DNA of 32,892 bases, from assembly GCA_000585015.1 (NCBI GenBank), contig JFAX01000008.1:78897-111788 (forward strand), written 5' to 3'. Position 1 is the first letter of the stretch, and each line of letters starts with the position of its first letter. The position numbers were made by a program, and so were the translations under genes. Shown one piece after another: positions 23,221 through 29,290 of the stretch. The stretch is from Candidatus Accumulibacter adjunctus. Lineage in GTDB: Bacteria > Pseudomonadota > Gammaproteobacteria > Burkholderiales > Rhodocyclaceae. The notes beneath the pieces were generated by a model. It did no database searches. It had not been told where the DNA came from and saw nothing but the letters and a program-made list of their open reading frames with translations.

Positions 23221-25348
<2,128 letters not shown>

Positions 25349-25378
25349 TCGACGTGCCGCGGGAACTGTTCGGGGCCC

Positions 25379-25498
25379 GCAGCACTCCATGACAGCAGAT
25401 GGCGCTGCCGTCTCCCGCTTCACCTCCCTGAGCGGGTGCCTTATTCCCTTAAGGCATGTCCTGCCCCCGGCTCCCCCCTTTGCCGGGGGTTTTTTTTT
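25379..25498 (+). ncRNA. Candidate small regulatory RNA with C/U-rich loops, convergent with engB
   Basis: Four hairpins follow each other on the plus strand. First, GCAGC/GCTGC with inner CCAT/ATGG (25379-25408). Second, CCCGCT/AGCGGG (25414-25436) with loop TCACCTCCCTG. Third, TGCCTTA/TAAGGCA (25437-25456) with loop TTCCCT. Fourth, CCCCCGGC/GCCGGGGG (25464-25489) with loop TCCCCCCTTT and nine T's after it, a textbook intrinsic terminator. No protein frame explains the terminator on this strand, because hemB and engB are both encoded on the other. Exposed CCUCC/CCCUU loops could pair with ribosome binding sites. The position beside engB with cytochrome c4 beyond matches the ErsA/Spot 42 locus of gammaproteobacteria. 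The transcript is inferred and its 5' end unknown. Confidence 0.55.
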
Positions 25499-26204
25499 GT
25501 TGCTGGCCGGCGTTGGTCGCGCTGCGTGCGCTCCAGCCGATCGCCGCGCGCTTCTTGCGCGCGCTGCTCGCGCCAGGCGAGCTGGCGGGCGATGCTGCCG
25601 CTTCCTGGGCGCGCATGCCGACCCAGCCGCCGAGAACGGCCTCGGCTTGCCCGATGCCCAACCTCCTCAGGCTCGAGAAGAACTGCCACGTACAGCGGCC
25701 GCCGGTGGTCGCCAGTACCGTGGCGACCTCGCGCGCCGCGAGATCCTGCTGCTGCCGGGTCAGCTTGTCCGCCTTCGACAACAGGACATGTATTGGTTTG
25801 CCCGTTGGAGCAAACCAGCCGAGCATCTGCAGGTCGAGCTCGGTCAGCGGGTGGCGGCTGTCCATGATCAGGACGAGGCCGCAGAGCGCCTCGCGGTAGC
25901 GCAGATAGGGCGCCAGCAGACCCTCCCACTGGGAACGGATCTCTTCCGGTGCCTTGGCATAGCCATAGCCGGGCAGGTCCACGAGATACTTGCCGGCTGC
26001 TATCCGGAAATAGTTGAGATGCTGGGTCCGTCCGGGTGTGCGCGAGACGAAGGCGAGACGCGTGTGGTTGGCGAGGGCGTTGATCGCCGATGACTTGCCG
26101 GAGTTCGAACGGCCGGCAAACGCGATTTCGGCTTGCGAATCGCCCGGCAGATCCTGCAGTCGGGCCACCGTCGTCTGGAAGACTGCCTTCTGAAAGAGGG
26201 GCAT
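25449..26204 (-). CDS. engB: Ribosome-biogenesis GTPase EngB (YsxC/YihA)
   Basis: GTPase needed for large-subunit ribosome assembly, 251 residues. The G motifs are all present: G1 GRSNSGKSS (about 31-39), G2 in [14 protein letters not shown]3 [14 protein letters not shown]4 LLSKADKL and G5 FSS. Typical EngB proteins end at about 195-215 residues. Here the fold seems complete at VLGGWVG (about 196), and a tail of about 55 residues rich in Ala, Ser, Arg and Lys follows. The last 16 or so tail codons lie opposite the candidate sRNA and its terminator, and the stop codon is inside its third hairpin. The ATG at 26204 is fixed by the conserved [14 protein letters not shown]; no Shine-Dalgarno is visible. 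It is divergent from the cytochrome c4 gene. Confidence 0.95.
25464..25498 (+). terminator. Intrinsic terminator of the candidate sRNA
   Basis: A perfect 8-bp GC stem (25464-25471 with 25482-25489), a ten-base loop and a run of nine T's (25490-25498). The orientation is plus only: on the minus strand the stem is preceded by A's and followed by no T's, so it does not serve engB. The terminator overlaps the last codons of engB, whose C-terminal QQQKK is read from its complement. Confidence 0.85.
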
Positions 26205-26356: not shown

Positions 26357-26992
26357 ATGATTCGTACCACGGCACTAGCGGTTCTCCTGGCCGCCAGTCT
26401 CCCCGTCCTCGCCGCCGAACAGGCGAAGGCAAAGCCCGACCTGGCCAAGGCCAAGGAAATCGCCGAGGGGGTCTGTGTGGCCTGCCATGGTGCCGACGGC
26501 AACAGTCCGGCGGCGGCCAATCCCATCATCGCCGGTCAGCTTCCCGAGTATCTCTACAAGCAGCTGAGCAACTTCAAGTCGATCGATGGCAAGCCGCCGG
26601 TACGCAACAATGCGATCATGGGCGGCATGGTTGCGGCGCTGTCGGATGACGACATGCGCGCCCTCGCGCTGTATTTCGCACAGCAGAAGATCAAGCCCTC
26701 GGTGGCCAAGGACGAGAAGCTCCTGGTGGAGGGCAAGTCCCTCTGGCGTATGGGAGATTTTTCGAAGGGCGTGCCGGCGTGTGCCGGTTGCCACGGTCCG
26801 GCGGGCGCCGGTCTGCCGAGCCAGTATCCGCGCCTCGCGGGTCAGTACGCCGAGTATACCGCAGGCCAGTTGAAGAGCTTCCGGAGTCACGAGCGGGCCA
26901 ACGATTCGGAGAAGATGATGCGGGTCATCGCCGGCAAGCTTTCCGATCACCAGATCAACGCGGTTGCCGAGTACGCTGCAGGTCTGCGCTAG
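26357..26992 (+). CDS. Dihaem cytochrome c4
   Basis: Periplasmic electron carrier of 211 residues, the usual cytochrome c4 size, carrying electrons to terminal oxidases. A signal peptide (MIRTTALAVLLAASLPVLAAEQ) is followed by two homologous haem domains. The first has CVACHGADGNSP, GQLPEYLYKQLSNFKS and the distal region NAIMGGMVAALSDDDM. The second has CAGCHGPAGAG, YPRLAGQYAEYTAGQLKSFRS and SEKMMRVIAGKLSDHQI. GGGAG is seven bases before the ATG at 26357. A good terminator follows the stop. Proximity to engB is shared with Pseudomonas, where the c4 gene also neighbours engB. It is probably an electron acceptor of the bc1 complex encoded at the end of the window. Confidence 0.94.
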   Translation: MIRTTALAVLLAASLPVLAAEQAKAKPDLAKAKEIAEGVCVACHGADGNSPAAANPIIAGQLPEYLYKQLSNFKSIDGKPPVRNNAIMGGMVAALSDDDMRALALYFAQQKIKPSVAKDEKLLVEGKSLWRMGDFSKGVPACAGCHGPAGAGLPSQYPRLAGQYAEYTAGQLKSFRSHERANDSEKMMRVIAGKLSDHQINAVAEYAAGLR

Positions 26993-29092: not shown

Positions 29093-29188
29093 GGCGGGTC
29101 TCCCCGCATCGCAGGATGGTGAACCTGGTCAGGTCCGGAAGGAAGCAGCCACAGCCGTCTGATGCGAGTGCCGGGGGTAAGGCTCGCC
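29093..29188 (+). ncRNA. ffs: Signal recognition particle 4.5S RNA
   Basis: The universally conserved SRP RNA apical loop is present: GGTCAGGTCCGGAAGGAAGC (29128-29147) followed by AGCC, the part bound by Ffh. The flanks pair into a long hairpin. GGCGGGTC at the 5' end faces GGCTCGCC at the 3' end, CCCCGCATCGCA faces TGCGAGTGCCGGGG, and the short bacterial form of about 96 bases is complete. It guides inner-membrane proteins to the Sec machinery together with Ffh and FtsY. The gene stands directly before dnaX, a frequent arrangement in proteobacteria. Ends are set by pairing and may be off by a few bases. Confidence 0.93.
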
Positions 29189-29290
29189 ACTTCCTCTCCT
29201 GGCCGCGTCGATGCAGGCCGACGGCGTGGCCCGGGCGCGGTCCCGCGGTACCGGTGGCAAGCAAACTGTCACGGGGCCCGAGGCGCCATC

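Follow-up and report, generated by a model that had tools for sequence, protein, structure and literature searches.

An anti-hemB small-RNA gene between hemB and engB in an Accumulibacter genome and its proposed kinship with ErsA and sX13

Positions 25379-25498 of the window, by which we mean the whole stretch of 32,892 nucleotides analysed here, hold a real small-RNA gene of a family known from Burkholderia. We consider it likely that the window RNA is a free-standing, trans-acting, Accumulibacter-like anti-hemB member of a family seated at the polA/engB locus, probably transcribed with RpoE and acting by blocking ribosome-binding sites. On this reading, anti-hemB makes up the betaproteobacterial branch of an old polA/engB-locus sRNA family to which ErsA and sX13 also belong. 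We lean, on balance, towards a single ancient family of Beta- and Gammaproteobacteria comprising anti-hemB, ErsA and sX13, ancestrally controlled by sigma-E and blocking strong ribosome-binding sites, with the promoter swapped in Burkholderiaceae and Comamonadaceae, and with Spot 42 of enterics as a replacement or a diverged form.

The Rfam family RF02837 ('anti-hemB') matches 25411-25497 over its full model (1-81) with 68.8 bits and an E value of 2.7e-14. The gathering threshold of 49.5 bits is passed, and the locus is therefore a member of an already known family. The position of the window RNA between hemB and engB is also that of the anti-hemB RNA. Our own models score it at 98 bits (R1, built from betaproteobacterial sequences alone) and 94.2 bits (R2, built from 75 beta- and gammaproteobacterial matches), scores that are not independent because the window sequence is among those used for building. 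The anti-hemB name was tabulated for B. pseudomallei in 2012 (PMC3521395). The B. cenocepacia RNA ncS04, which is anti-hemB, is presented as a 105 nt RNA with start-site coverage, a Northern panel and a citation for Hfq binding, and its change is over threshold in none of the seven conditions tabulated (PMC5688073). The original prediction had held that such an RNA would be new in a betaproteobacterium, which fails because the family has been described in Burkholderia as anti-hemB. Its central claim, an sRNA with anti-Shine-Dalgarno loops, is sustained by structure, covariation, open C-rich loops and a family with an expressed, Hfq-bound Burkholderia member.

Table 1. Features of the hemB-engB interval and its surroundings (window coordinates).
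Feature	Position	Strand	Remarks
hemB	24284..25300	-	ORF; ATG at 25300, start codon uncertain; divergent from sRNA
-35-like GGAACT	25362..25367	+	sigma-E-type promoter motif
-10-like CTCCAT	25385..25390	+	degenerate relative to gTCWNA; window matches the loose pattern only
Predicted sRNA	25395..25498	+	about 104 nt; 5' end inferred from promoter
Hairpin 1 (HP1)	25397..25413	+	absent from Rfam model RF02837
Hairpin 2 (HP2)	25414..25436	+	anti-Shine-Dalgarno loop ACCUCCCU in conserved structure
Hairpin 3 (HP3)	25437..25456	+	loop UUCCCU
engB	25449..26204	-	ORF; convergent with sRNA, 3' end overlapping sRNA
Terminator hairpin	25463..25490	+	loop UCCCCCCUUU; found by terminator scan on plus strand
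Terminator T-run	25490..25498	+	nine T
Cytochrome c4 gene	26357..26992	+	ORF; start approximate; frequent engB neighbour

Four tandem hairpins and an intrinsic terminator lie on the plus strand between hemB and engB, and both had been correctly read from the sequence, as the fold and a terminator scan agree (Table 1). The free energy of the fold of 25370-25510 (+) is -66.3 kcal/mol; 200 dinucleotide shuffles average -50.7, and none of them is as stable (z -4.10). Three loops of the RNA are C-rich, and in the single-sequence fold the HP2 loop reads CCUCCC. The predicted extent stands at its 3' end; the 5' end is likely nearer 25395, so that 25379-25394 would be promoter.

The structure is under selection in the family. 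Across 69 betaproteobacterial (beta) loci, the window included, it comprises 26 pairs in four helices with 95.3% of cells paired, a value that drops to 33-54% in slid controls. Stems are conserved with compensatory changes in these related genomes, as the original prediction implied: 19 of the 26 pairs show changes on both sides, the shuffled mean being 9.8, and none of 500 shuffles reaches 19. Covariation is 0.283 in these 69 sequences and 0.141 after shuffling. Such both-side changes affect all six pairs of HP1 and five of the six of HP3. With 75 beta and gammaproteobacterial (gamma) matches the count rises to 25 of 26 pairs (shuffled 16.4), in a model-fitted alignment that favours its own structure. 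RNAalifold on the raw beta and gamma alignment A1 recovers just 15 pairs and mostly loses HP2 and HP3; the beta alignment A2 and the model-fitted A4, which leans towards its structure, were used instead. Seven of 40 gamma loci were excluded from A1 and A3, and six of 40 from the sources of A4. L031, identical to L030 over the RNA, was dropped from the 69 aligned loci and kept among the 70 beta loci of the layout counts below, from which L033 was left out.

The loop letters CTCCCTG are at least 90% conserved in 58 beta and gamma sequences. The mean unpaired probability of CCUCCC is 0.84 in the 69 beta loci and 0.85 in the gamma loci where the motif turned up (38 of 40), compared with 0.40 for the whole RNA; it exceeds 0.8 in 55/69 and 29/38 loci, respectively. 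Four conserved hairpins, open C-rich loops, a terminator and a conserved place characterize the family.

The neighbouring genes are taken to be hemB, engB and cytochrome c4, names assumed from the original prediction, and PolA was recognised by eye in translated sequence. Used as tblastn queries, EngB and PolA land on the annotated yihA and polA of E. coli. The ORF list puts both hemB and engB on the minus strand, as had been stated. The engB stop codon (TAA, 25449-25451) lies within the sRNA, whose last part, from the end of HP3 through the terminator, therefore runs antisense to the 3' coding end of engB over about 50 nt. The engB frame crosses the antisense of the sRNA terminator (25449-25498), giving EngB a C-terminal tail with lysines. 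The overlap probably follows incidentally from the convergent packing of the two genes. Elsewhere in the window, the Rfam scan places a small bacterial SRP RNA at 29093-29191 (+) with 81.2 bits.

Relatives are widespread. At E <= 0.001, RF02837 matches 232 of 300 genomes in the order of the window, 190 of them over the cut-off, and 124 of 274 in its class, where 14 are over the cut-off and 12 of those belong to other orders. The same E value also admits E. coli, Caulobacter and Deinobacterium controls below the cut-off. It is therefore unspecific alone, and we rely on genomic place and a held-out test. Outside the order there are 122 matching genomes; from 40 of these, for the most part the highest-scoring, we took one locus apiece, which gives the 40 gamma loci. 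Nearly all have a 5' hairpin, one of the form CCGCT-n-CCTCCCTGAGCGG, and, often with a C-rich loop, a further hairpin and a terminator. A CCUCCCU loop is common to RF02837-like RNAs of many Gammaproteobacteria, between polA and engB. Ectothiorhodospira mobilis and Steroidobacteraceae are among the named gammas in the list of 119 HP2-pattern stretches described below; of the stretches listed, that of Candidatus Accumulibacter meliphilus comes nearest to the window (HemB 83%, EngB 67% identity).

The order hemB (divergent)-sRNA-engB (convergent)-cytochrome c4 is found in 46 of 70 beta loci. EngB is in the fetched flanks of 61 of these 70, on the other side in nine, and of 26 of the 40 gamma loci. 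PolA occurs in 29 of the 40 gamma loci, upstream on the same strand in 26 and with the sRNA flipped in three (L109, L113, L119), and in none of the beta loci. These searches (tblastn) cover 1.5-kb flanks, and missed neighbours may therefore be real genes. At least 119 genome stretches match the HP2 pattern, and neighbours were sought within 2.5 kb. Among the 119 listed, 58 have hemB-sRNA-engB, 29 hemB only, nine polA-sRNA-engB and nine one other neighbour; 14 have no polA, engB or hemB within that distance. Together with the held-out test and the intermediate sequences described below, the gamma loci support one old polA/engB-locus family, in which hemB stands where polA would be in betaproteobacteria.

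Several loci have features of their own. Two to five tandem copies of the RNA are present in the gamma loci L116, L117, L085, L087, L096, L118 and L108, and a Nitrosospira locus (L183) has two HP2 matches. Two stretches with the HP2 pattern (L223, L237) come from MAGs titled Klebsiella and Chloroflexi, titles that may be wrong bins. A c-di-GMP-I riboswitch lies near one gamma locus (L091, 2173-2257, minus strand). The window's own genome has a weak second R2 match of 30.0 bits (L002 1475-1571, G000:C17) with CCCTCCCT and a terminator, a possible paralogue.

R1 detects all 40 gamma loci at E <= 8e-6, a partly circular result as the loci had been preselected by RF02837. R2 matches 150 of the 274 class genomes. 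R2 is not fully blind, since weak ErsA or sX13 matches led to six of its training loci (L261-L266); R1 is blind. The held-out set consists of 40 R2 matches, sampled at intervals along the ranking (E 1.6e-18 to 4.2e-8), in gamma genomes that gave no training sequence, 31 of them from families without a training sequence by family labels. In 35 of the 40, polA or engB lies within 2.5 kb; engB is convergent downstream in 26 of 26 cases and polA upstream on the same strand in 23 of 23. The five without either are L290, L314, L315, L306, which lies at a contig end, and L303, which adjoins cytochrome c4.

Intermediate sequences appear to link the named families. At L116, where polA and engB enclose four copies of the RNA in tandem, there are four RF02837 matches as well as sX13 (48.3 bits) and ErsA (37.1 bits) matches below threshold. 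Six of the nine sub-threshold ErsA matches in the class coincide with RF02837 matches, and the remaining three (L261, L263, L264) lie between polA and engB. At least three of the ten sub-threshold sX13 matches coincide with RF02837 matches. L334, for which an RF02837 match is not listed, carries CCTCCCTGAGCGGG, scores 40.1 bits with sX13 and has polA upstream. R1 matches both sX13 loci at the place of sX13 (20.3 and 15.1 bits) and gave no match on ErsA. R2, searched against the loci alone, matches the ErsA of G460 with 30.3 bits and sX13 with 33.4 and 28.8 bits. Its search of the phylum missed the ErsA of G460 and landed on three ErsA genes (L329-L331; 127-139 bits with RF01719) amid polA, engB and cytochrome c4. 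R2 also matches three of three loci of the sRNA ar7 (L361-L363), all of one genus and at just 14-17 bits; PolA, sought with a C-terminal query piece, was not found in their 1.5-kb flanks.

The window RNA itself stands further off. ErsA/Pseudomon-1 (RF01719, gathering threshold 50 bits) is not among its matches at E <= 10, sX13 (RF02232) reaches 20.6 bits (E 0.054) below a threshold of 50 bits, and its place is not the polA-engB place of ErsA, engB being present and hemB standing instead of polA. True homology to ErsA, one of the two possibilities raised in the original prediction, has support from the bridging sequences and none from direct comparison, as the window lacks an ErsA-model match and R1 misses ErsA. 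True homology to Spot 42, the other, is not supported: RF00021 (threshold 80 bits) has no match in the window, R2 misses spf, and the Spot 42 search found 0 of 274 class genomes while matching the E. coli control. An Rfam scan for Spot_42 and ErsA accordingly returned neither in the window. Positional homology to both is supported by the gamma relatives between polA and engB and by the order polA-spf-yihA in E. coli, where Spot 42 is convergent with yihA/engB. In E. coli spf (L257) a GAACT lies about 31 bases before +1, a place like that of the family -35; this is one sequence and may be chance.

Upstream of the RNA at many loci is a motif, GAACT-N16..19-TCWNA, which we take to be the shape of a sigma-E (RpoE/AlgU) promoter. 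One of the 69 beta loci and one of the 40 held-out loci had too little upstream sequence for the motif count, which leaves 68 and 39. The strict motif is found at 46/68 beta, 23/40 gamma and 22/39 held-out loci (45/79 gamma in total) and at 3/3 ErsA loci, against shuffled means of 0.01-0.21, related loci not being independent counts. The loose motif is found at 58/68, 34/40, 34/39 and 3/3, respectively. In 34 held-out cases the distance from the start of GAAC to the model is 19-21 bases. The window's own copy, with its degenerate -10, fits the loose pattern alone, which counts against sigma-E control here; all five further loci fetched from its family (L019, L042-L045) have the strict motif, and the window's genome encodes a canonical RpoE (327 bits).

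The motif is unevenly distributed among lineages, here counted among the named HP2-pattern stretches listed and grouped by record titles. Strict and loose motifs, respectively, occur in nine and ten of 10 Rhodocyclaceae and Zoogloeaceae, five and nine of 11 Nitrosomonadales and neighbours, three and ten of 10 Gammaproteobacteria, and ten and 23 of 31 unplaced records. The strict motif occurs in none of 19 Burkholderiaceae, 31 Comamonadaceae and similar, or five Oxalobacteraceae, the loose motif in two, one and one. The promoter motif is common to most sampled lineages except Burkholderiaceae, Comamonadaceae and Oxalobacteraceae. Since the strict form is missing in these three and in most named gammas, sigma-E control is not universal. 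As it is absent from the named Burkholderiaceae, it has probably been lost in the lineage where the RNA was studied.

Anti-hemB, ErsA and sX13 could instead have arisen independently, each converging on C-rich hairpins where the locus tolerates sRNAs, with cross-matches arising from GC-rich terminators. We regard this as unlikely, though it is the rival that fares best. It would account for the weak R2 matches in 22 genomes that belong to the phylum but not to the class and are presumably alphaproteobacterial: none of the 13 fetched has polA or engB nearby, nor do the class loci L332, L333 and L345, two of which (L332, L345) belong to the genome family of the ErsA genes. It also fits the failure of R1 on ErsA and the presence of L261-L266 in the R2 training. 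The promoter speaks differently, being common to the ErsA loci; at 14 weak-match loci (the 13 outside the class and L345) it occurs 0/14 times in strict and 2/14 in loose form (shuffled 1.3). Convergence is further opposed by single sequences that two or three family models match at one place, by the constant order and orientation of neighbours in the held-out set and by the matches of R1 to both sX13 loci.

The family name suggests a cis-antisense regulator of hemB, and the overlap of about 50 nt suggests one of engB. At 54 of 70 beta loci the RNA and hemB are divergent, the RNA overlaps the 3' coding end of engB in the window, and hemB is the predicted target of the Hfq-bound Bc7 according to a review (PMC6321483). 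From the literature and the Rfam name we infer that Bc7 is the anti-hemB RNA ncS04. The RNA nevertheless points away from hemB and shares no sequence with the hemB coding region, HemB is found at 0 of 40 gamma loci (tblastn, 1.5-kb flanks) and polA lies upstream in 26 of them. EngB is not detected beside the RNA at 9/70 beta and 14/40 gamma loci, some at contig ends, and the loop letters are conserved across groups. We therefore hold cis-antisense control to be improbable. That the plus-strand intrinsic terminator belongs to a terminator or attenuator structure without a separate sRNA is very improbable indeed, as three hairpins before it covary, loop letters are conserved, the promoter motif stands at a near-fixed distance and the Burkholderia relative is an expressed RNA (PMC5688073).

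The best reading of the window RNA, its function being deduced from features and relatives, is an envelope-stress-controlled, Hfq-assisted sRNA whose C-rich loops would block ribosome-binding sites, and not a hemB antisense. Under envelope stress, RNA polymerase with RpoE would transcribe the roughly 104 nt that extend from near 25395 to 25498, and Hfq would assist the product. The loops ACCUCCCU and CCCCCC may pair with ribosome-binding sites of the GGGAGG type and so block translation, and targets might include exported or envelope proteins among others. Judging from its features and from its relatives sX13 and ErsA, the sRNA would, when the envelope is under stress, lower the translation of a group of mRNAs with strong initiation. 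The pattern AGGGAGGT-N3..9-ATG has seven sites in the window's genome and one when reversed as a control. The frame downstream of one of the seven has 11 codons only, another enters a masked stretch, and one other AGGGAGGT site precedes a frame that by eye resembles an OmpA-type exported protein. Any C-rich loop of this kind would match strong Shine-Dalgarno sites, which weighs against this reading.

Three RNAs named separately in different bacteria, anti-hemB, sX13 and ErsA, thus appear to form one family fixed at the polA/engB locus. The authors of the sX13 study noted that the polA locus is common to sX13, Spot 42 and the alpha-r7 RNAs and raised the question of whether it encodes sRNAs elsewhere too (PMC3771888); for many gammaproteobacterial genomes the answer on polA-locus sRNAs is yes. 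The polA-engB gamma loci offer a path from there to hemB-engB in betaproteobacteria. The sigma-E-type motif points to RpoE as a possible inducer of an RNA without a known one. That the Burkholderia RNA did not respond in the conditions tried would fit, since the named Burkholderiaceae examined, which do not include B. cenocepacia, are without the strict motif. In the open-licence PMC literature, the scope of our search, we found neither the link of anti-hemB to ErsA and sX13 nor the sigma-E-type promoter, and no listed paper treating both sX13 and ErsA; the term anti-hemB occurs there in three papers, one of which concerns an antibody.

Among known systems, Spot 42 of E. coli resembles the window RNA in adjoining engB and being convergent with it, and differs in having no sequence match and in its control, being described as repressed by CRP. 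sX13 (RF02232) of Xanthomonadaceae likewise has several hairpins with C-rich loops, and is bridged to anti-hemB by L116, L099, L105 and L334. It adjoins polA, and through its C-rich loops it represses mRNAs that carry G-rich motifs close to the start (PMC3771888). Unlike the expectation for the window RNA, which scores below the sX13 threshold, sX13 is reported in that study as Hfq-independent. For ErsA of Pseudomonas, a review describes AlgU-dependent transcription, the use of Hfq and repression of algC with Hfq (PMC8395346). The intermediates and the ErsA genes have in common the promoter motif, terminator loops rich in C and a place in the order polA-sRNA-engB-cytochrome c4, whereas the window RNA falls below the ErsA model and is adjoined by hemB, not polA. 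The anti-hemB RNA of Burkholderia is like the window RNA in sequence and structure over the full Rfam model, in its hemB-engB position and in its length of about 105 nt. The two differ in that the Rfam model is without HP1, which the window RNA has, and in that named Burkholderiaceae are without the strict sigma-E-type motif that 9/10 named Rhodocyclaceae and Zoogloeaceae possess among the matches listed.
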